Shown here piece by piece: positions 48,630-64,000 of a DNA stretch of 64,000 nucleotides. A program made the position numbers and the translations under genes. Position 1 is the first letter of the stretch, and each line of letters starts with the position of its first letter. The stretch is from Saccharothrix longispora (GTDB taxonomy: Bacteria; Actinomycetota; Actinomycetes; Mycobacteriales; Pseudonocardiaceae). Where the stretch lies: positions 62,001-126,000 of the forward strand of contig NZ_NSDM01000006.1 of NCBI RefSeq assembly GCF_030852425.1, read 5' to 3'. Under the pieces are notes generated by a model that was given only the letters and a program-made list of their open reading frames with translations, made no database searches and was not told the DNA's origin.

Positions 48630-49688
48630 TCACGCCTCGACCACCATCAGCCTCCCGGCGTCGAGGGCGAGCGCGACGGTCGTGCCGGGCGGGAAGTCGG
48701 TCGCGCGGCCGGAGGGCTGGTCGACGCGCACCACCTGGCCACCGCCGCCGAGCCGCACCGACAGCCTGGTCACGGGGCCCAGGAAGCTCTGCGCCAGCAC
48801 GTCGCCCACCAGCACGTCCCCCGTCGGGGCGTCGTCGTCCCCGCCGCCGTGCCGGGTGATCGCGATGTCCTCCGGCCGGACGATCACCTTCACGTCGCCG
48901 TGCAGCCCGTCGGCCGCGTCGGTGGCCAACCGGAACGCGCCCAGCCGCACCCCGCCCGGCTCGGCGGTGCCGAACACCGCGTTCGTGACGCCGACGAACT
49001 CCGCCACGAACGCCGACGCGGGCTCCCGGTACACGCGGGCCGGGGTGTCCAGCTGCTCCAGCCGACCGTGCGACATCACGCCCACCCGGTCGGAGACGGC
49101 CAGCGCCTCCTCCTGGTCGTGCGTGACGAACAGCGTCGTCGTGCCCGACTCGGTCTGGATGCGCCGGACCTCGTCGCGCAGTCCCACCCGCACCTTGGCG
49201 TCCAGGGCGGACAGCGGTTCGTCGAGCAGCAGCACGCGCGGCCGGATCGCCAGCGCCCGCGCCAGGGCCACCCGCTGCTGCTGGCCGCCGGACATCTGGT
49301 GCGGGTAGCGCTTGCCCAGGTGCGCCAGGCCGACCAGCTCCAGCAGCTCGCCGACCCGGGCGCCGCGGTCGGGCGCCCGGCGCAGCCGCAGGCCGAACGC
49401 GATGTTCTCCGCCGCGGTCATGTTCGGGAACAGGCTGTAGGCCTGGAACACCATGCCCATGTCCCGCTTGTTGGCGGGCACCCCGGTGACGTCCTCGCCG
49501 GCCACGGTGACGCGACCCGCGTCGGCGGTCTCGAACCCGGCCACGATCCGCAGCGCGGTGGTCTTGCCGCAACCGCTGGGCCCGAGCAGGCTGACCAGCT
49601 CGCCCTCGGCCAGCTCCAGGTCGAGCCCGGCGAGTGCCGTCTGGCCGCCGAACGACTTGCGCAGCCCGTCGAGTCGCAGGTAACCCAT
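48630..49688 (-). CDS. ABC importer ATP-binding protein (PotA/FbpC type)
   Basis: A 352-aa ATPase. Walker A GPSGCGKTTALRIVAGFE, Q-loop VFQAYSLFPNMTAAENIAFGL, signature HQMSGGQQQRVALARALA, Walker B LLLDEPLSALD, His switch LFVTHDQEEALAVSD, then a C-terminal TOBE domain (VIVRPEDIAITRHGG). This class serves iron(III), polyamine, 2-aminoethylphosphonate or thiamine importers. It is the last gene of the operon binding protein - permease - permease - ATPase. Confidence 0.92.
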   Translation of the reverse strand: MGYLRLDGLRKSFGGQTALAGLDLELAEGELVSLLGPSGCGKTTALRIVAGFETADAGRVTVAGEDVTGVPANKRDMGMVFQAYSLFPNMTAAENIAFGLRLRRAPDRGARVGELLELVGLAHLGKRYPHQMSGGQQQRVALARALAIRPRVLLLDEPLSALDAKVRVGLRDEVRRIQTESGTTTLFVTHDQEEALAVSDRVGVMSHGRLEQLDTPARVYREPASAFVAEFVGVTNAVFGTAEPGGVRLGAFRLATDAADGLHGDVKVIVRPEDIAITRHGGGDDDAPTGDVLVGDVLAQSFLGPVTRLSVRLGGGGQVVRVDQPSGRATDFPPGTTVALALDAGRLMVVEA

Positions 49689-49689
49689 C

Positions 49690-50484
49690 TCAGCCTTCCT
49701 CCGGAGAACCGTTCGCGGGGGAGGCGTCCCGCCGCCTGCCGACGAACGAGAGCAGGAACAGCAGCGCGAACGCGAACAGCAGGCTCAGCAGCGACACCGC
49801 GATGGACACGCCCGCGGCGCGCTTGCCGAGCAGGTTGACCCGCACCTGCACCGTGTCGAAGTTCAGCAGCGAGGCGATGGTGAACTCGCCGAGCACCAGC
49901 GCCACCGACAGCAGGGACGCGCCGATCAGGGCGCTGCGGATGTTCGGCACCACGACCCGCAGCAGCACCGTCCCCCAGGACGCGCCGAGACCGCGCGCCG
50001 CCTCCGCGAGCGTCCTCAGGTCGATCGCGGACAGGCCGGCGTCGATCGCCCGGTAGGCGAACGGCAGCACCAGCACCGCGTAGGCGAAGGTCAGCGTCAG
50101 CGGCGAGTCGCCGAGGAAGTGGTCGACCCACGCGTACAGCGGGGCCAGGCCGACGACGAGCACGATCGCCGGGATCGCCACCGGCAGCAGGCACAGGAAC
50201 TCCACGAGCCGGCGCAGCCCCGGCAGCCGGAGCCTGATCCACGCCATGGTCGGCACGAGCAGCACCAGCACCAGCACCGAGCTGGTCACGGCCAGCTGCA
50301 CCGACACCAGGATCGCGTCGACCAGGTCGGGGTCGTCGACGATGCCCGACCACGACTCCAGGCTGCGCGTGCCGTTCGCACCCCGGGTGGAGAACTCGGC
50401 CATGGCGACCAGCGGCAGCAGGAAGTACGCGCCGAGCACCAGCAGGACCGCGGACCGCGTGATCCCCCTCTTGGTCACTGCCAC
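49690..50484 (-). CDS. ABC importer permease 2
   Basis: A 264-aa permease with six membrane segments and the EAA loop LAEAARGLGASWGTVLLRVVVPNIR (about residues 165-190). It starts at the GTG at 50484, preceded by GGAGG; a second GTG at 50478 overlaps the upstream stop and is an alternative. It ends one base before the ATPase start region, in a tight operon. Confidence 0.9.
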   Translation of the reverse strand: MAVTKRGITRSAVLLVLGAYFLLPLVAMAEFSTRGANGTRSLESWSGIVDDPDLVDAILVSVQLAVTSSVLVLVLLVPTMAWIRLRLPGLRRLVEFLCLLPVAIPAIVLVVGLAPLYAWVDHFLGDSPLTLTFAYAVLVLPFAYRAIDAGLSAIDLRTLAEAARGLGASWGTVLLRVVVPNIRSALIGASLLSVALVLGEFTIASLLNFDTVQVRVNLLGKRAAGVSIAVSLLSLLFAFALLFLLSFVGRRRDASPANGSPEEG

Positions 50485-51401
50485 CGGGTGAACCTCCGCT
50501 GGAGCAGGGCGTACAGGCCCATCGCGACGGCGACGACCACGATCATGCCGAAGCCGAGCGCCTTGCCCAGGTTCTCCTGCCCGAGCAGCACCTCACCGGT
50601 CAGCGCGCCCCGGATCCGGAGCGGCACGATCGGGCTGCCCTGGGACACCAGCGCGGCGGCCGTGGCGTAGGCGGAGAACGCGTTGGCGAACAGCAGCAGC
50701 AGCGAGCCGAGGAACGCGGGCAGCAGGATCGGGCCGCCGACGTGCCGCCAGTAGGTCCACGACGAGCCGCCGAGGCTGTCCACCGCCTCCCGCCACTGGG
50801 GGCGCAGGCCGTCCAGGGCGGGCAGGAACACGATGACCATCAGCGGGATCTGGAAGAACGTGTAGACCAGGGTCAGGCCGGGCAGCTCGAACAGCCAGGC
50901 GCCCGTGGCGAACAGGTCCACGCCGAACGCGTCGCGCAGGAACGTCGTGACGAAGCCCTGGAAGCCGACGGTGGCGAGGAACGCGAACGCCAGCGGCACG
51001 CCGCCGAACTGGGCCAGCACCCCCGCCCCGGCGATCACGACGCGGCGCAGCGCCCCCTCGCGGCGGCCGGTGGCGACGGCCCAGGACAGCAGCGCGCCGA
51101 ACACCGCGCCGAGCAGCGCGGTGAGCGCGGACAGCTCGATGCTGCGCAGGAACGCCTGGAGGTGGACGCCCCGGGTCAGCTCGGCGAGGTTGGCCAGGGT
51201 GAACGCACCGTCCCCGTCCTGGAACGCCCCGGCCAGCACGAGTGCCGTCGGGTAGAGCAGGAACGTGCCCGCGTAGGCCAGGAACGGCACGACGACCAGC
51301 CACGCCGCCCAGGGCGCGCGGGACGGACCGCTGTCGGTCCTCCTCCGGCGGGGCCCGGGCGAAGGGCCCTTCCCGGCCGCCGTCGTGACGGGTGCGACCA
51401 C
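50475..51401 (-). CDS. ABC importer permease 1
   Basis: A 308-aa permease with a charged N-terminal tail (GPSPGPRRRRTDSGPSRAP), about six or seven membrane segments and the EAA loop WREAVDSLGGSSWTYWRHVGGPILLPAFLG. It pairs with permease 2 and overlaps it by 10 bases. GTG start at 51401. Confidence 0.9.
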   Translation of the reverse strand: MVAPVTTAAGKGPSPGPRRRRTDSGPSRAPWAAWLVVVPFLAYAGTFLLYPTALVLAGAFQDGDGAFTLANLAELTRGVHLQAFLRSIELSALTALLGAVFGALLSWAVATGRREGALRRVVIAGAGVLAQFGGVPLAFAFLATVGFQGFVTTFLRDAFGVDLFATGAWLFELPGLTLVYTFFQIPLMVIVFLPALDGLRPQWREAVDSLGGSSWTYWRHVGGPILLPAFLGSLLLLFANAFSAYATAAALVSQGSPIVPLRIRGALTGEVLLGQENLGKALGFGMIVVVAVAMGLYALLQRRFTRWQ

Positions 51402-51404
51402 CGG

Positions 51405-52535
51405 TCAGCCCACCGCCCGCGCCCACGACGCGGACAGCACCTGCTTGGCCTTGTCCGACTGCTCCTGGGTCAGGAACACCTGTTCGCCGCCGGTGTCGGG
51501 CAGCTTGGCCGCGGCGGCGGCGTCGAGCGTGCCCGCCTTCGCCATCGCGTCCATGCGCACCGGCCGCGAGAGCCCTCCGAGGTACAGGTTCTGCCCCTCG
51601 TCGGAGTACAGGAACTCCTGCCACAGGCGGGCGGCGGCCGGGTGCGGAGCGTCCTTGTTGACCGCCTGGTTGTAGTACGCGCCGACCTGGGCGTCCCGCG
51701 GGACGACGACCTTCCAGTCGACCTTGCCCGCGAGCTTCGCGGTCTGCGCGGCGTTGGTGTAGTCCCAGTCGATCACGACCGGCGTCTGGCCTGACTCGAT
51801 GGTCGCGGGCGACGGGTCGACCGGCAGGAAGTTGCCCGCGGCCTTGAGCCGGGCGAAGAACTCGACGCCGGGCGCGATGTCGTCGGCCGAACCGCCGTTG
51901 CCGAGCGAGGCCATCACGACGCCGGAGAACGCGGCGCCGGCCTGCGTCGGGTCGCCGTTGAGCGCGACCTTGCCCTGGTACTCGGGCTTGAGCAGGTCCT
52001 TCACCGAGGTCGGCGCGGGCACCTTCGAGGCGTCGTAGCCGATCGACATGAAGCCGCCGTAGTCGCCGTAGTGGAGGCCCGAGGGCTCCTTCAGCTCGTC
52101 GGGGATGTCCGCCCAGGTCTCCACCTGGTAGGGCGCGAACACGTCGGTGTTGGCGAGGGCGACGTTGAGGCCCAGGTCGAACACGTCGGGGGCGCGGTCG
52201 CCGCCCTTGAGCTGCTTGGCCGCGTTGATCTCGTCCTGGCTGGAGGCGTCGGGCTGCGCGGAGTCGACCTCGATGCCGTACTTCGCCTCGAACGCGGAGA
52301 TGATCGCGCCGTAGTTGGCCCAGTCCGGGGGCAGCGCGATGACGTTGAGCCTGCCCTCCGCCTTCGCGGCCTCGACGAGCTCCTCCAGGCCGCCGAACTC
52401 GGCGGCGGACTTCGCGGTGGCCGCGGGCGTGCCGCTCGCGGCGCCCTCCTTGGGCGGAGGCGTGCCGCAGGCCGCGACGAGCGCCAGCGCCGCGGCGCCG
52501 GCGCCGACCAACCGCAGGACTCGGGTGTGGGTCAC
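51405..52535 (-). CDS. ABC importer substrate-binding lipoprotein
   Basis: A 376-aa extracellular binding protein. Signal and lipobox: VLRLVGAGAAALALVAACG (Cys at about 23). The body is a periplasmic-binding fold of the iron/polyamine/2-aminoethylphosphonate class (COG1840-like): LEELVEAAKAEGRLNVIALP, VFDLGLNVALANTDVFAPY, MSIGYDASKV, PVVIDWDYTNAAQ. The paired tyrosines typical of Fe(III)-binding FbpA are not obvious, so I would not call iron; the substrate is open. First gene of the operon. Confidence 0.88.
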   Translation of the reverse strand: MTHTRVLRLVGAGAAALALVAACGTPPPKEGAASGTPAATAKSAAEFGGLEELVEAAKAEGRLNVIALPPDWANYGAIISAFEAKYGIEVDSAQPDASSQDEINAAKQLKGGDRAPDVFDLGLNVALANTDVFAPYQVETWADIPDELKEPSGLHYGDYGGFMSIGYDASKVPAPTSVKDLLKPEYQGKVALNGDPTQAGAAFSGVVMASLGNGGSADDIAPGVEFFARLKAAGNFLPVDPSPATIESGQTPVVIDWDYTNAAQTAKLAGKVDWKVVVPRDAQVGAYYNQAVNKDAPHPAAARLWQEFLYSDEGQNLYLGGLSRPVRMDAMAKAGTLDAAAAAKLPDTGGEQVFLTQEQSDKAKQVLSASWARAVG

Positions 52536-56528: not shown

Positions 56529-56566
56529 GGACGCGGGCCCGGCTCCCTACCGCCGTGCCCGCGTCC
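56529..56566. terminator. 10-bp hairpin between convergent genes
   Basis: GGACGCGGGC and its exact reverse complement 18 bases apart, reaching into the 3' end of the DAHP synthase gene. Likely shared by the SOD-like gene and the aroG transcript. Confidence 0.5.
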
Positions 56567-57560
56567 GCGCGGCGGCGGCCAGGGTGCGGAGCAGGGGCAG
56601 GGTGTTGTCCCAGCCCAGGCAGGCGTCCGTCACGCTCAGGTCCGGGCGCAGCCGGCCCGCCGCCAGGTCCTGCCTGCCGTCCGCCAGGTAGGACTCGACC
56701 ATGACGCCGACCAGGGCGCGGTTGCCGTCCTCGACCTGCGCCGCCAGGTCGGCGACCACGCCCGGTTGCCTGCGGTGGTCCTTGCCGCTGTTGCCGTGCG
56801 AGGCGTCGACCACCACGCGGGGCGGGAGGCCGGCCCCGGCCAGGGTGGCGAGGGCGTCCGCCACGTGCGCGGCGCCGTAGTTGGGGGTCGGGCCGCCCCG
56901 CAGGACCAGGTGGGCGTCCGCGTTGCCGGTGCTGCGCAGGGTGGTGAGCCTCCCGTCGGCGGCCACCCCCGGGAAGGCGTGGGGCAGGCCGGCGGCGCGG
57001 ATGGCGTCCACCGCCGTGTCCAGACGGCCGGAGACGCAGTTCTTCATGCCGATCGGCATGGGCAGCCACGACGCCAGGTGCCGGTGCGGTTGGCTGGCCA
57101 CGGTGCGCGCGCCCACCGCGCCCCACGTCACGACGTCGGCCACGTAGTGCGCCAGCATCGGGTCGACGAACTCGTAGGCCAGGGGCAGGCCGGTCGCCGC
57201 GGCCTCGGCCAGGAACGACCGGCCCTGCCGGACGCCGGTCGCGATGTCGCCCTTGCCGTCGAGCGTCGGGTCGGGGAGCAGGCCGGTCCACCCCGCGACG
57301 GTGCGCGGCTTCTCCAGGTAGGCGCGCATGACCACGACCAGGTCGTCGGCGAACCGGTCGGCGGCGTCCTTGAGCAGGCCCGCGTAGTCCAGCGTCGCCG
57401 CCGGGTCGTGCACGGAGCAGGGGCCGACCACGACGAGCAGCCTCGGGTCGCGCCCGCCGAGGACGTCGGCGACGGTCCCCCGGTGCCGGGCCACCGCCTC
57501 CGCCACCGAGCGGTCCGCGCCCACCTCGGCCGGTGTGGGGAGGGTGTCCTGGTCAGGCAT
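56547..57560 (-). CDS. 3-deoxy-7-phosphoheptulonate (DAHP) synthase, class I
   Basis: A 337-aa AroG/AroF-type enzyme that joins phosphoenolpyruvate and erythrose-4-phosphate, opening the shikimate pathway. Motifs: RLLVVVGPCSVHDPAA, VVMRAYLEKPRT, GLLPDPTLDGKGDI, ARTVASQPHRHLAS, PIGMKNCVSGRLDTA and VVVDASHGNSGKDHRRQ. Actinomycetes usually use the unrelated class II enzyme for primary metabolism, so a class I copy overlapping an exporter gene and NRPS points to dedicated supply of an aromatic precursor. ATG at 57560, overlapping the MFS stop by 8 bases. Confidence 0.92.
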   Translation of the reverse strand: MPDQDTLPTPAEVGADRSVAEAVARHRGTVADVLGGRDPRLLVVVGPCSVHDPAATLDYAGLLKDAADRFADDLVVVMRAYLEKPRTVAGWTGLLPDPTLDGKGDIATGVRQGRSFLAEAAATGLPLAYEFVDPMLAHYVADVVTWGAVGARTVASQPHRHLASWLPMPIGMKNCVSGRLDTAVDAIRAAGLPHAFPGVAADGRLTTLRSTGNADAHLVLRGGPTPNYGAAHVADALATLAGAGLPPRVVVDASHGNSGKDHRRQPGVVADLAAQVEDGNRALVGVMVESYLADGRQDLAAGRLRPDLSVTDACLGWDNTLPLLRTLAAAARTRARR

Positions 57561-58959
57561 CTGCGTGGCCCTTCTCGTGAACGGGACGGGGCAACCTGGT
57601 CGCACCCAGCGCGGCCACCAGCGCGAAGCCGAGCACCCACCAGAAGGTGTCGGCGAACGCGGCGGGCGTGTCGGGTCCGCGAGCCGTCAACCTGGTGCTC
57701 AGCACGACCGCGAGGACGGCGGTGCCGACGGAGCCGCCGACCGTGTTGAGCAGGTTGAGCGCGCCGGCGGCCCCGGGCAGCCGCGCGGGTTCGATCCGGC
57801 TGTAGACGATGTTCATCACCGGTGCGCCGATCATGGCCGCGCCCGCGCCGCGCACGAGCAGCGACAGCGCGATGACGACGTCCGGCAGGTCGTGGTGGAG
57901 CTGCGTGAACGGGGCCGTGCCGACGGCCACCAGCGCGATGCCGGTCAGCACCAGCGTGCGCGGCGCGACGGTGTCCACCGCGCGGGTGACCAGGACGGAC
58001 CCGATCGCCGCGCCCACCCCCTGCGGCGCGAGCAGCAGGCCGGTCTCCCAGGCCGAGAGCCCGCCGCCGGTCTGGAGGAACAGCGGCAGCAGGAACATCG
58101 TGCCGAACACGGAGGCGCCGAGGACGACCAGCGCCAGCGCGGCCACGCCGAACGGGGGCCGGGCGAACAGGCGCGGGTCGATCAGCGGGGTGCCGCGGGT
58201 GCGCAGGCCGTGCACGACGAACCCGGCCAGCATCGCCAGGCCCGCGGCGATCGACGCGGCGACCACCGCCGGCGGGACGGCCTGGTCCACGGCGGTGAGG
58301 CCGAAGACGAGCACGGCGAGACCCGGCGACAGCAGCAGCGCGCCGCGCACGTCGAACGGCGTGCGCCCACCGGCGGCCGGCACGGCGGGCACGGTGCGGC
58401 GGGCGAGCAGGATGGCCACCGCGCCGACCGGCAGGTTGACGTAGAACAGCCACGGCCAGTCCGCCACGGCCAGGATCGACCCGCCGGCCAGCGGGCCGAG
58501 CACCGGCGACAGCAGGGGCACCACCGAGACGACGCCCAGCACGCGGCCGATCCGCTCCCGCCCGGCGGCCCGCGCGAGCAGGGCCTGGCCGGTCGCCGGC
58601 AGCAGCCCGCCGGCCAGGCCCTGGAGCACCCGGAACGCCACCAGGGCCGGCAGCGACCAGGCCAGCGCGCACAGCACCGAGGCCAGCAGGAACACCGCCA
58701 CGGCGGTGATCCACACGCGCCGGCCGCCGAAGCGGTCCGCGAGCCAGCCCGACGCGGGCACGGCGGTGACCACCGCGAGCAGGTAGGCCGTGGTGACCCA
58801 CTGGATGTCGGTGACCCGCGCGTCGAACCGGTCGGCCAGGGCGTCGATGCCGACGAGGACGATCGTGCTGTCCAACGTCGCCATGAACGTGCCGAGCACC
58901 AGCGTGAACGCCGTGCGCCACAGCGCCGCGTCCACCTTCACCCCCGTCGCCCCGCTCAC
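57553..58959 (-). CDS. MFS exporter (DHA2/EmrB-QacA type)
   Basis: A 468-aa transporter with about 13-14 membrane segments. Motif A loop is WLADRFGGRRVWI; FMATLDSTIVLVGIDAL and GPLAGGSILAVADWPWLFYVNLPVG are typical of the DHA2 drug-proton antiporters. It starts at the GTG at 58959, overlapping the NRPS stop (GTGA), and is likely the exporter or self-resistance pump of the NRPS product. Confidence 0.92.
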   Translation of the reverse strand: MSGATGVKVDAALWRTAFTLVLGTFMATLDSTIVLVGIDALADRFDARVTDIQWVTTAYLLAVVTAVPASGWLADRFGGRRVWITAVAVFLLASVLCALAWSLPALVAFRVLQGLAGGLLPATGQALLARAAGRERIGRVLGVVSVVPLLSPVLGPLAGGSILAVADWPWLFYVNLPVGAVAILLARRTVPAVPAAGGRTPFDVRGALLLSPGLAVLVFGLTAVDQAVPPAVVAASIAAGLAMLAGFVVHGLRTRGTPLIDPRLFARPPFGVAALALVVLGASVFGTMFLLPLFLQTGGGLSAWETGLLLAPQGVGAAIGSVLVTRAVDTVAPRTLVLTGIALVAVGTAPFTQLHHDLPDVVIALSLLVRGAGAAMIGAPVMNIVYSRIEPARLPGAAGALNLLNTVGGSVGTAVLAVVLSTRLTARGPDTPAAFADTFWWVLGFALVAALGATRLPRPVHEKGHADA

Positions 58960-61900
58960 GGCCGCGCCCCGATCAGGGCGGTGACGTCGCCGTCCAGGTG
59001 CGCGGGCAGGTCCCGCAGCACGCGCAGCAGGTCGGCGGCCAGCGCCTCGACCTCGTCCCGCTCGAACACCCCGGCCTGGTGGCCGAGGACGCCCGTCCAG
59101 CCGTCGTCCCCCGGCACGACGGTCAGCGTCACCGGGTGGTGCGTCCGCTCGCGGAACCGGGTGCCGGTGACGGTGAGGCCGGGGGCCGGTTCGCGCAGCC
59201 GCGCCGGGTCCACCGGGTAGTTCTCGAACACCACGAGGCTGTCGAACAGCCGGTCGCGGCCGGTCAGCCGCTCCAGCTCGGGCAGGCCGACGTGGTCGTG
59301 CTCCGCCATCGCCTGCCGGCGGGCCTGCGCGTCGACCAGCGACGCCGCCACCGTCCCGGTGAACCGGACGCGCACCGGCACCGTGCCGGCCAGCAGCCCG
59401 ATGATCTCCTCGACGCCGTCCACGTCGGCGGCCCGGTTGGCGACCATCGCGCCGAAGCACACGTCCCGCCGTCCCGAGCGGGCCGCGAGCACCACCGCCC
59501 ACGCGCCCTGGAGGACCGCGTTCGGCGTCAGGCCGCGCCGCGCCGCCTCCCGCGTCAGCGCCGCCACCAGCGGGGCGTCCACCCGGAACAGCACCGGCTC
59601 CGCCGCGCCGACGACGAGGTCCCGGCCCCGGGTCAGGTAGTCGCCCTCGGGCAGGTCCGCCAGTTCCGCGCCCCACGCCCGCAGGTGCCCCTCGCGGTCC
59701 GCGGTGGACAGGTGGCGCAGGTAGCGGCTGAACGGGACGGGTTCGGGCAGCGCGCGGCCGGCGTAGAGCGCGAACAGCTCGGTGAGGATGCGCGGGGCGG
59801 ACCACCCGTCCGACAGCACGTGGTGGCTGGTCAGGACGAGCACGTGCCGCCCGGGCGCGGACCGCAGCACGGTCAACCGCAGCGGCGGCCCGACGGCCAG
59901 GTCGAACGGCTCCGCCAGGTCCTCGTCGAGCGCGCGTTCCGCGTCGTCCACGTCGCGGAGCCGGAACCCGGGGCGCGGGTCGCGCGGGATCACCTGCACG
60001 GCGGGCGACTCCGGGAACAGCGCGCCGAGGTTGGGGTGCCGCCGCAGCAGGGCCTCGCCCGCCGCGCGCAGGGCCCCGACGTCGAGCGGGCCGGACAGCG
60101 AGAACGCCGCCTGCACGGTGTACGGGTCGGTCGCGTGCGCCCGCGCGTGCCGCAGCATCACCTGCTGCAACGGGGTCGGCGGCAGCACGTCGGCCACCGG
60201 CCCCCTCGCCTCCAGGGCGTCGATCTGCCGCTGGTCGAGCCGGACCAGCGGCAGGTCGGAGGGGGTGAGCCCGGCCCCCGCCGACACGTCGGGGTCGCCC
60301 GCGAGGCGGGTCAGGGCGTCCACCAGGCGCCGCGCGAGGTCACCGATCTCCACGTCGTCGAACAGGGCGGCGGGCCAGGTGAACCGGATGCCGAGCGCCT
60401 CGCCGTCACCGTCGTCGCGCGCCAGGGCGTTGATCATCAGCGCGTGCGGCAGCGGCAGGTCGTCACCGCCGCCCGAACCGAGCGGGTCGGCGTCCGCCGG
60501 GGCCTGCCACGGGGTGTCCGCGCCGGTCCGGGCGGGGAAGCGGCCGAGGTAGTTCCAGCTGATCTCCGGCGCGCACGGCGGCGCCTCGTCGCCGAGGATG
60601 CCGTAGCCGAGGCCGTCACCCGCGGCGTTCAACTGCTCCTTGACCGCCTTCAGCGCCCCGGCCGCTCCGGTGTCCGGCACCCGCACGCGCGCCGGGTGCA
60701 CGGCGGTGAGCCAGCCGACGGTCTGGGACAGCTCGACCGGCCCCGAGTGGTCGGGGGCGTGCGGCGGGCGGCCGTGGCCCTCCAGGGCCACCAGCAGGTC
60801 CGGCTCGGTGCCGCGCCACTCCCCCACGGCTCGGGCGAGGGCGGTGAGCAGGACGGTGTCCGGGGTGGTGCGGTACGCGGCGGGCAGGGTGGTGAGGACG
60901 GTCCGCGTCGTGGCGGGGTCGAGGTGGACGACGTGGTGGACGGCGGTGGCCGCGGTGTCCCGGACGGGGTCCGGCGTGACGCGGGCCGGTGGCGCGGCGG
61001 CCACGTGCCGCCAGTGCGGGAGTTCCGCGCGGCGGTGCGGCACGGCGTCGCGCAGCGCCTTCGCCCAGCCGAGGAACGACTGGCCGTGCCGGGCCGGCGG
61101 GCGGCCGGTGTCGTGGACGTGGGCGATGTCGTCGAGCAGCACGCGCCAGGACACGGCGTCCACGACGGCGTGGTGCGCGACCAGGGCGAGCCGGCCGGGA
61201 CGCGTCGGCCCGGCGTCGACCCACACGGCGCGCAGCAGCGGTCCCGCGCGCAGGTCCATGCGGTCGCGGGCGTCGGCGACGTGCCGGTCGACGAGCGCGC
61301 GCGGGTCGTCGGTCCGGGGAACGCGGGTCAGCACGTCCGCACCGGTCACCGCGCCGACGGCGGGGATGCGCAGGACGTCGCCGGCCAGGTGGGCGCGCAG
61401 CACGTCGTGCCTGGCCAGCACGGCGTCGAACACGGCGTGCCAGGTCGCGAGGTCGCCGCCCGCGGGGACGACCACCTCGACCCACTGGCAGAACCCGTCG
61501 GCCGCCGGGCCGGAGCGCCGCACCAGGTCCCGCATGACCGGGAGCAGCGGGGCGTCACCGGTCGCGGGGGCCTCCTCGGAACGCCCGACGGCACCGCAGC
61601 GCGCGGCGATCCCGGCCACGGTGCGCCCCTCGAAGACGTCCCGCGCGGTCAGGGACAGTCCCTCGCGGCGCGCCCGGGAGACGACCCGCAGCGACACGAT
61701 GCTGTCGCCGCCGACGTCGAGGAACGCGTCGTCCGGGCCGACCTCGTCGGTGCCCAGCACCTCGCGGAACACGGCCAGCAGCACGGCTTCCGCGTGCGTG
61801 GCCGGTTCCCGGGCCGGCGCGGTGGCGCCCGAGCCCGGCGCGGGCAGCGCGGCCCGGTCGAGCTTGCCGCTGGGGCCGAGCGGCAGCCGGTCGAGCAGCA

Positions 61901-64000
61901 CGAACGCGCCCGGCACCATGTGGTCGGGCAGCTCCGCGGACAGGTGCCCGCGCAGCGCCTCGACGTCGGGGGCGGCGTCGTCGGCGGGGATCACGTAGCC
62001 GACGAGCCTGCGGTCGCCGGGCCGGTCCTCGCGGACGACCACGGCGCACGCCCGCACGTCGGGGTGCCGGGTCAGCACGGTCTCGATCTCGGACAGCTCG
62101 ATGCGGAAGCCGCGCACCTTGACCTGGTGGTCGGCGCGGCCCAGGAACACCAGCTGCCCGTCCGGTCGCCACCGCACCAGGTCGCCGGTGCGGTACATGC
62201 GCTCACCCGGCCGGGCGCCGAGGGAACCGGCGAACGGGTCCGCCACGAACCGCTCGGCGGTCAGGGCGGGTCGGTTGAGGTAGCCGCGGGCCAGCTTCGG
62301 CCCGGCCAGGTACAGCTCGCCGGTCACGCCGACGCCGACCGGCTGGAGGCCGCCGTCGAGCACGTAGGCGCGCACCTCGGGGTCCGGGCGGCCGATCGGC
62401 AGCGGTCCGTCGTCGTCGGGCTCGTACTTCCAGGTCACCGAGTTGATCGTGACCTCGGTGGGGCCGTAGGCGTTGAACAGCGCGCGCCGCCCGGTGCCCC
62501 AGCGGCGGGCCAGTTCGGGGTCGAGGCGCTCCGCGCCGACGACGAAGAACACGTCCGGGTCGACCTCGCGGTCGTCGGGCACGGCGGCCAGGAACGACGG
62601 CAGCAGGTTCACGCCGGTGCACCGGTGCTCGGCGATGTAGTCCAGGAGCTCGTCACCGGGCACCCGCACCTCCTCCGGCGCGATGACCGACGTGCCGCCG
62701 GACAGCAGCGGCAGCATGAACTGCCAGAACGCCACGTCGAAGCTGGTCGAGGCGAAGTGCAGGTACCGCTCGCCGCGCCCGATGCCGACGACGTCCTCCT
62801 GGAGCGCGACCAGGCTGGGCACGCCGCGGTGCGGCACGGCGACGCCCTTGGGCCTGCCGGTCGTGCCGGAGGTGTAGATGACGTAGGCCAGCGAGTCCTC
62901 GGTGAGGTCGCGGCGCGCGTCGACGGGATCGGCGTCCCAGCCGTCCGGGCCGTCCGAAGTGGATGGGTCGGCGAGGTCCAGCACGGGCAGGCCGGACAGC
63001 ACGACCGGCGTGCCGCCGGACGTCACGGCGGCGGCGGGCGCGGCGTCGCGGAGCATGTGCGCCAGCCGCTCCGCCGGGTAGTCCGGGTCCATGGGCACGT
63101 ACACCGCGCCCGCCTTGAGCACGCCGAACAGCGCCACGACCATCTCCACGTCGCGGCCGAGCAGCACGGCGACGGTGTCCTGCGGGCGCACGCCGCGGGC
63201 CAGCAGGGCGTGCGCGAGCCGGTTGGCCCGCCGGTCCAGCTCCGCGTAGCCCAGCGACCGGTCGCGGCACACCACGGCCTCCGCGTCCGGCGTGCGGTCG
63301 ACCCACGCGCCGAACTCCGCCAGGCAGCCGCCGCGCTCGCGGACGGGTTCCGCGCCGAGGCCCAGGCGCAGCAGGCGGTCGCGCTCCCCGTCGTCCACGG
63401 CGCGCAGCCGCTCCACCGGCCGGTCCGGGTCGTCGACGATCTCGTGCAGCAGGGTGCGCAGCCGCCGGCCGCAGTCGCGGACGGTCTCCTCGTCGAAGGC
63501 GTGCGGCTGGTAGCCGAGGCCGACGACGATCTCGTCCTCCGGGATGACGATCACGGTCAGCGGGTAGTGCGTGGCGTCGGTGATGTCCACGCCCACCAGC
63601 TCCAGGCCGGGTGCGAGCGGGGCGCGACGCCGGCTGGAGAGCGGGAAGTTCTCCATCACCAGCATCGTGTCGAACAGCTCGCCGACGCCGACGGCCCGCT
63701 GCACGTCCGACAGCCCGACGTGGTGGTGCTCGGCGAGCGCGACGCTCTCCTCGTGCACGCGGTCCAGCAGCGCCGCGGCGGTCTCGCCGGACGCGTGCCG
63801 CACCCGCACCGGGACGGTGCCGCCGAGCTGGCCGATCATGGCCTCGACACCGTCGACCTCGGCGGGCCGGCCGGACACGGGGCAGCCGAAGACGACGTCG
63901 CGACGCCCGGTGAGCCTGCCCAGCAGCACGCCCCACGCGGTCTGGAACACGGTGGTCGGCGTGACGCCGCGATCGCGGGCGAACGCGCGCAGCCGGTCGC
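58956..64000 (-). CDS. Non-ribosomal peptide synthetase, C-A-PCP-E-C (5' end off window)
   Basis: About 1,680 residues are visible, the N terminus lying beyond 64000. Order (counted from the edge): C-terminal half of a condensation domain (to about 220); adenylation domain with A3 YTSGTTGRPKG (near 375), AYGPTEVTI and the YRTGDLVRWRPDG block; carrier site DVGGDSIVSLR (near 765); epimerisation domain with HHAVVDAVSW (near 945); then a last condensation domain with intact HHVLSDGW (near 1395). No thioesterase or further carrier follows before the stop. By-eye A-domain pocket residues D-V-W-L-F-V-A-I-N give no clear substrate. The E domain predicts a D-amino acid. GTGA overlap with the exporter. 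Confidence 0.93.
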   Translation of the reverse strand, partial: DRLRAFARDRGVTPTTVFQTAWGVLLGRLTGRRDVVFGCPVSGRPAEVDGVEAMIGQLGGTVPVRVRHASGETAAALLDRVHEESVALAEHHHVGLSDVQRAVGVGELFDTMLVMENFPLSSRRRAPLAPGLELVGVDITDATHYPLTVIVIPEDEIVVGLGYQPHAFDEETVRDCGRRLRTLLHEIVDDPDRPVERLRAVDDGERDRLLRLGLGAEPVRERGGCLAEFGAWVDRTPDAEAVVCRDRSLGYAELDRRANRLAHALLARGVRPQDTVAVLLGRDVEMVVALFGVLKAGAVYVPMDPDYPAERLAHMLRDAAPAAAVTSGGTPVVLSGLPVLDLADPSTSDGPDGWDADPVDARRDLTEDSLAYVIYTSGTTGRPKGVAVPHRGVPSLVALQEDVVGIGRGERYLHFASTSFDVAFWQFMLPLLSGGTSVIAPEEVRVPGDELLDYIAEHRCTGVNLLPSFLAAVPDDREVDPDVFFVVGAERLDPELARRWGTGRRALFNAYGPTEVTINSVTWKYEPDDDGPLPIGRPDPEVRAYVLDGGLQPVGVGVTGELYLAGPKLARGYLNRPALTAERFVADPFAGSLGARPGERMYRTGDLVRWRPDGQLVFLGRADHQVKVRGFRIELSEIETVLTRHPDVRACAVVVREDRPGDRRLVGYVIPADDAAPDVEALRGHLSAELPDHMVPGAFVLLDRLPLGPSGKLDRAALPAPGSGATAPAREPATHAEAVLLAVFREVLGTDEVGPDDAFLDVGGDSIVSLRVVSRARREGLSLTARDVFEGRTVAGIAARCGAVGRSEEAPATGDAPLLPVMRDLVRRSGPAADGFCQWVEVVVPAGGDLATWHAVFDAVLARHDVLRAHLAGDVLRIPAVGAVTGADVLTRVPRTDDPRALVDRHVADARDRMDLRAGPLLRAVWVDAGPTRPGRLALVAHHAVVDAVSWRVLLDDIAHVHDTGRPPARHGQSFLGWAKALRDAVPHRRAELPHWRHVAAAPPARVTPDPVRDTAATAVHHVVHLDPATTRTVLTTLPAAYRTTPDTVLLTALARAVGEWRGTEPDLLVALEGHGRPPHAPDHSGPVELSQTVGWLTAVHPARVRVPDTGAAGALKAVKEQLNAAGDGLGYGILGDEAPPCAPEISWNYLGRFPARTGADTPWQAPADADPLGSGGGDDLPLPHALMINALARDDGDGEALGIRFTWPAALFDDVEIGDLARRLVDALTRLAGDPDVSAGAGLTPSDLPLVRLDQRQIDALEARGPVADVLPPTPLQQVMLRHARAHATDPYTVQAAFSLSGPLDVGALRAAGEALLRRHPNLGALFPESPAVQVIPRDPRPGFRLRDVDDAERALDEDLAEPFDLAVGPPLRLTVLRSAPGRHVLVLTSHHVLSDGWSAPRILTELFALYAGRALPEPVPFSRYLRHLSTADREGHLRAWGAELADLPEGDYLTRGRDLVVGAAEPVLFRVDAPLVAALTREAARRGLTPNAVLQGAWAVVLAARSGRRDVCFGAMVANRAADVDGVEEIIGLLAGTVPVRVRFTGTVAASLVDAQARRQAMAEHDHVGLPELERLTGRDRLFDSLVVFENYPVDPARLREPAPGLTVTGTRFRERTHHPVTLTVVPGDDGWTGVLGHQAGVFERDEVEALAADLLRVLRDLPAHLDGDVTALIGARP

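Follow-up and report, generated by a model that had tools for sequence, protein, structure and literature searches.

A probable mirubactin-type siderophore operon in Saccharothrix longispora with a peptide synthetase that ends in a condensation domain

We analysed a window of 64,000 nucleotides (C51:62001-126000, C51 being contig NZ_NSDM01000006.1) from the 8.28 Mb draft genome of the actinomycete Saccharothrix longispora. The end of the window carries the downstream tail of a probably iron-regulated, mirubactin-type siderophore operon, whose nonribosomal peptide synthetase (NRPS) would obtain one building block, N5-formyl-N5-hydroxyornithine (hfOrn), in trans. We put the probability of this reading at roughly 0.8. 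The gene content and gene order are observed. The substrates, the product, the regulation and the supply in trans are predicted, mainly from the counterpart in Actinosynnema mirum. An earlier note on this DNA had suspected a new natural-product locus. This suspicion is not supported, because gene order, NRPS identity and adenylation codes, all compared with A. mirum, point to the mirubactin type.

The mrb cluster of A. mirum 101T (genome G021, same genus, taken as that strain) has the same gene content in the same order, from the DAHP synthase to the EntA-type dehydrogenase. The 12 non-NRPS proteins are 67-84% identical between the two clusters, and the NRPS is 67.6% identical over our residues 20-3435, with the same nine domains. 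The codes of the two adenylation (A) domains were placed by eye from the GrsA positions. The A1 code DSDDVGMVD is one residue apart from DSDDVGAVD of A. mirum, and the A2 code DVWLFVAIN differs from DVWLFVAVN by Ile/Val only. A scan of genome contigs gave 586 matched stretches, 580 of which encode a relative; the best 80 correspond to 70 loci. Most relatives among these best 80 cover the entire query, and they belong to Streptomyces, Amycolatopsis, Actinokineospora, Saccharothrix and others. Later locus counts (linkage, neighbours) are made over 73 loci, and the family alignment holds 75 rows including our own. The A2 code of our NRPS is found in 60 of the 72 readable rows, own included. As described in PMC9609785, A. 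mirum carries the mirubactin A cluster, both ornithine-type residues are D, and mirubactin A contains two 2,3-dihydroxybenzoate (DHB) groups and a hydroxamate; it also has a guanidine, which is missing from mirubactin C. By hand sum, two DHB, arginine and hfOrn minus three waters give [M+H]+ 605.2, which equals the value for apo-mirubactin A in that paper (PMC9609785), where the ferric form is given as m/z 658.1. Mirubactin A would therefore be the free acid.

The NRPS is a single protein of 3439 aa on the minus strand (C51:120956-131275, window-equivalent 58956-69275), with TTG as its start; start codons of the cluster genes were set by eye. The earlier note had placed the locus at 56547..64000, which is exact at the start, but 64000 is merely the edge of the window and the NRPS runs on to window-equivalent 69275. 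A domain search finds five domains of the Condensation family, two A domains and two carrier domains. Their order, motifs and tree positions give the layout C-A-T-E-C-A-T-E-C, where C is condensation, T carrier and E epimerisation. The C-terminal 1664 aa lie inside the window and comprise an A domain, a peptidyl carrier domain (PCP) and three Condensation-family stretches. The HHxxxD motif reads HHAVVDA in E2 and HHVLSDG in the terminal C domain, directly after which the protein stops, with no further domain. The MFS gene shares 4 nt with the end of the NRPS gene and 8 nt with the beginning of the DAHP synthase gene. The DAHP synthase is of class I, AroFGH type (PF00793, 218 bits; TIGR00034, 374 bits, above cut-off), and the exporter is DHA2/EmrB-like (TIGR00711, above cut-off). 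Domain searches and gene overlaps thus confirm what was first noted from the window: an E-C end without thioesterase, with genes for an MFS exporter and for a DAHP synthase of class I coupled to the NRPS. The features inside the window are as follows.

56547..57560, minus strand: DAHP synthase of class I (AroFGH type), whose gene ends the unit (PF00793, TIGR00034)
57553..58959, minus strand: MFS (DHA2/EmrB-like) exporter, probable siderophore exporter (TIGR00711; 4-nt overlap with the NRPS stop)
58956..64000, minus strand: NRPS, C-terminal part (domain searches)
58959..60269, limits approximate, minus strand: terminal condensation domain Ct, aa 3003-3439, DCL clade, HHVLSDG
60291..61562, limits approximate, minus strand: second epimerisation domain E2, aa 2572-2995
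61596..61787, limits approximate, minus strand: second peptidyl carrier domain, GGDSI at aa 2522
61836..63323, limits approximate, minus strand: second adenylation domain, code DVWLFVAIN(K), predicted to take hfOrn by analogy with A. mirum
63381..64000, minus strand: internal C2 domain, part; it extends past the window

The complete unit, most of which lies beyond the window, consists of 13 genes on the same strand. Neighbouring genes overlap by 4-8 nt at nine of the 12 junctions; gaps of 142, 34 and 32 nt separate them at the other three. Going upstream from the NRPS, a FecE-type ATPase, two FecCD permeases, a binding protein of the ferric-siderophore type and a siderophore-interacting protein (SIP) are found. 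These are followed by a stand-alone carrier protein, an isochorismatase, an EntE-type ligase, an isochorismate synthase and a 2,3-dihydro-2,3-DHB dehydrogenase of the EntA type. The last two are above the cut-offs of TIGR00543 and TIGR04316 (338 bits for the dehydrogenase), and the EntE-type ligase reaches 661 bits with TIGR02275, under its cut-off of 724. According to the family searches, the genes for 2,3-DHB synthesis and loading, with the carrier protein, are all present in the unit. So are the import genes (a substrate-binding protein, SBP; two FecCD; an ABC ATPase), the SIP and the MFS exporter. A 19-bp IdeR-like box with 1 mismatch to the consensus is located at C51:139860-139878, where 142 nt separate the isochorismate synthase gene from the gene upstream of it, and was matched in 0 of 200 shuffles. 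The isochorismate synthase gene would thus be the first, and the DAHP synthase gene the last, of 12 genes headed by this box. No IdeR-like box is present in the window or in locus L011. No thioesterase is found in the NRPS or among the scanned neighbours, which are 10 open reading frames of the window and 9 upstream proteins including the NRPS.

Two further elements of the region are recorded here. Close to the siderophore genes, a distinct set of ABC importer genes occupies window 48630-52535; it encodes an SBP_bac_6-type binding protein, a permease, a TOBE-type ATPase and a 308-aa protein without Pfam match, and carries no IdeR-like box. A stand-alone Condensation-family protein of 466 aa is encoded at C51:165471-166871 (PF00668, 72 bits), some 25 kb past the EntA-type gene. 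At 1e-10 none of the 73 loci has a relative of it, so it was not counted to the cluster.

The earlier note took the DAHP synthase as a sign of an aromatic building block, and the neighbouring genes agree with this. Because the DHB genes adjoin just upstream, the enzyme is best explained by the chorismate demand for DHB. The linkage could be assessed in 55 of the 73 loci, the other 18 being excluded for contig ends or a missing anchor gene. With an EntE relative defined by at least 55% identity and more than 300 bits, the cluster DAHP synthase is present in 25 of the 36 loci that have such a relative, versus 1 of the 19 that do not. This sole positive locus, L094, holds an EntE piece cut by the locus edge. 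The enzyme is also not the only DAHP synthase of the genome, which has class II matches on contigs C52 and C12; on C7, PF00793 gives a further, weak match of 37 bits. The match on C12 (C12:74957-76072), the second of class II, has an NRPS condensation domain some 3 kb away. In several Streptomyces loci (L057, L060, L062, L063, L065 and similar ones) an aryl carrier protein stands beside the NRPS with no close EntB/EntE relatives in the locus; DHB may come from elsewhere there.

Genes for hfOrn would have to act from a distance. The A. mirum cluster is like our unit in this respect, having no hydroxylase or formyltransferase match in the 40 kb examined. Our genome as a whole has eight hydroxylase-family matches, three of them strong, and four formyltransferase-family matches. 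A stand-alone gene of the ornithine-hydroxylase family (C51:295343-296686) is divergent from two ABC transporter genes and has an IdeR-like box upstream, with 2 mismatches to the consensus. In this group of genes (L130:9343-14212), IdeR-like boxes are found between the hydroxylase gene and the transporter genes. A stand-alone formyltransferase-family gene is found at C4:282124-283071. Of the 73 loci, 19 have relatives of the hydroxylase (54-66% identical) as well as of the formyltransferase (73-76%) no more than about 10 kb from the NRPS, on the same or on opposite sides; no locus has just one of the two there. A family-wide search covered 297 genomes, 86 of which match the E-C end at 1e-130. 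We counted 48 as carriers of the NRPS orthologue, picked by us on identity and length, and put the partial matches G164 and G139 among the non-carriers. The hydroxylase occurs in 48/48 carriers versus 185/249 others (Fisher p ~4e-6) and the formyltransferase in 44/48 versus 146/249 (p ~5e-6), both p values being uncorrected for relatedness.

Several observations weigh against this supply in trans. The operon contains neither a hydroxylase nor a formyltransferase, and the nearest on the contig is at C51:295 kb. No IdeR-like box is found within 20 kb around the formyltransferase gene. A formyltransferase match at 1e-60 is missing from four of the 48 carriers (G018, G174, G275 and G279). All of the 25 genomes searched from the same genus have both genes, including 12 that show no match to the E-C end. 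Since they are present with or without the NRPS, they may serve, or be shared with, another siderophore. Neither protein passes the cut-off in any substrate-naming NCBIfam model.

The E-C end is a conserved feature of this enzyme family. The HHxxxDG motif was counted only where a row covers more than 90% of the terminal C domain (67 of 75, own included) and is intact in 67/67, so that the domain appears active from its retained catalytic motif, as the earlier note had supposed. The 66 homologues among these rows stop at nearly the same position, with a spread of a few residues. Outside the count are L073, which has no terminal C domain; L117 and L124, which have other ends; L122, with an earlier stop; L071, L123 and L125, which run off the available sequence; and the second open reading frame of L111, a short piece. 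The phylogeny of the last C domain is based on 70 domains, taken from 8 of the 75 family rows and from 30 of the 69 Condensation matches in our genome (31 were extracted, and C44_333825, without HHxxxD, was dropped). The terminal C domain falls in the DCL clade with support 100/99. In this clade 22 of 23 rows are post-E domains; the rows include the six post-E C domains of our genome that were used and one domain not after E. The terminal C domains of the eight family members used are monophyletic (100/100) and sister to C2 (95/89), with which ours shares 39% identity. They are apart from C1, the domain placed to take DHB. Among solved structures, PvdL is the best sequence match of the terminal C domain.

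Our tentative assignment, held at slightly less than even odds, is that the most likely role of the terminal C domain is to release the D-configured peptidyl thioester. Release of the D-hfOrn thioester is favoured because a DCL domain expects a D-peptidyl donor. Two findings speak against this role. The NRPS of Lentzea californiensis (L073:9239-18424) has no terminal C domain; it stops after E2, and the MFS gene is directly next. A published survey also notes a domain difference in the mirubactin-like cluster of this species (PMC9120177). The other finding is that our genome has 30 matches to the thioesterase family PF00975, some of them in short frames (e.g. C51:55611-56279) and none in the operon. 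Release in trans by an unlinked thioesterase is therefore possible, and the release role is rated lower because of these stand-alone thioesterases. A literature search, largely at title level, found no described role for the terminal C domain. With odds of about one in three, the DCL-type domain may perform a reaction that we do not know for such C domains, either acylation of the Arg guanidine by the second DHB or hydrolytic release of the D-chain in place of a thioesterase. If so, the L. californiensis enzyme would be a natural knockout.

The strongest rival keeps the same siderophore and lets the terminal C domain put the second DHB on the Arg guanidine, giving an acylguanidine, with the chain leaving otherwise, e.g. 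by an unlinked thioesterase. Mirubactin A has two DHB (PMC9609785), and none of the operon genes was identified as a separate acyltransferase. The full conservation of the terminal motif is consistent with such a function, the loss in L. californiensis would be tolerable if the domain merely decorates, and thioesterases are present elsewhere in the genome. However, the terminal C domain groups with DCL domains, which take D-peptidyl donors, and not with C1, the one placed for DHB on its aryl carrier protein; furthermore, C1 could act twice. We consider guanidine acylation rather unlikely.

It is improbable that the product is a related but different DHB siderophore, with A2 taking another residue in this strain. 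The separation of the hfOrn genes from the NRPS, the four carriers without a formyltransferase match and the Nocardia relatives L117 and L124, with other ends and other A2 codes, would fit this idea. But the A2 code is that of A. mirum apart from Ile/Val and is common to most readable rows, and genes of both the hydroxylase and the formyltransferase family are in this genome. The earlier note also considered that the chain is passed to a separate A-PCP protein. An E-C end is a usual layout upstream of a further module, and the partner search covered the scanned neighbours listed above, not the whole genome. No A-PCP protein is found among these neighbours, including those beyond position 64000, the end is near the same residue in the 66 homologues with an MFS relative next in most loci, and the mirubactin A mass (value from PMC9609785) needs just two DHB, Arg and hfOrn by hand sum. 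An ordinary split assembly line is thus unsupported and highly improbable.

For the mirubactin-type operon that we favour, the following pathway is proposed. The DAHP synthase would increase the flux to chorismate, from which isochorismate synthase, isochorismatase and the EntA-type dehydrogenase would form 2,3-DHB. The EntE-type ligase would load DHB onto the stand-alone aryl carrier protein. The NRPS would couple it to D-Arg and then to D-hfOrn, the latter made in trans by the unlinked iron-boxed hydroxylase and the unlinked formyltransferase. C1 would act twice and add the second DHB, and the terminal C domain would take the D-configured peptidyl thioester from PCP2 and most likely free it as the free acid. 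Mirubactin carries an N5-formyl group and an acylguanidine. The product would be exported by the MFS protein, and iron would be recovered by the SBP/FecCD/FecE importer and the SIP. With this assignment a suspected new locus is removed from the list and a product prediction is gained. One testable question is isolated, namely the role of the terminal C domain in a siderophore synthetase without thioesterase, for which a naturally shorter homologue is available for comparison. Should the unlinked iron-boxed hydroxylase work for this NRPS, a siderophore building block is supplied in trans and would be missed by cluster-bound mining.

The comparison can be extended to other systems. The Nocardia synthetases L117 (L117:9875-18490) and L124 (L124:9965-18829) share a homologous C-A-T-E-C-A-T part with 48% and 45% identity. 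L117 ends in T-TE (TE, thioesterase) and has three Condensation-family stretches, and the end of L124 is closely similar. Their A2 codes, DAMMVLFIG and DAMMCLFIG, are unlike ours. In an Actinomadura homologue (L122:9143-16039) two carrier domains but a single A domain are present, which would fit loss of the second A domain or its supply in trans. The chlorocatechelins belong to the same compound family according to PMC9609785, but their catechol is chlorinated; none of the 13 genes of our unit was identified as a halogenase, though no search was aimed at halogenases. The mirubactin-like cluster of Streptomyces drozdowiczii MDA8-470, as presented in PMC9609785, is alike in its core. There, coelichelin genes adjoin the cluster and homologues of the DHB genes are found about 130 kb off, whereas our DHB genes are inside the unit. 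Mirubactin A was detected in cultures of that strain.

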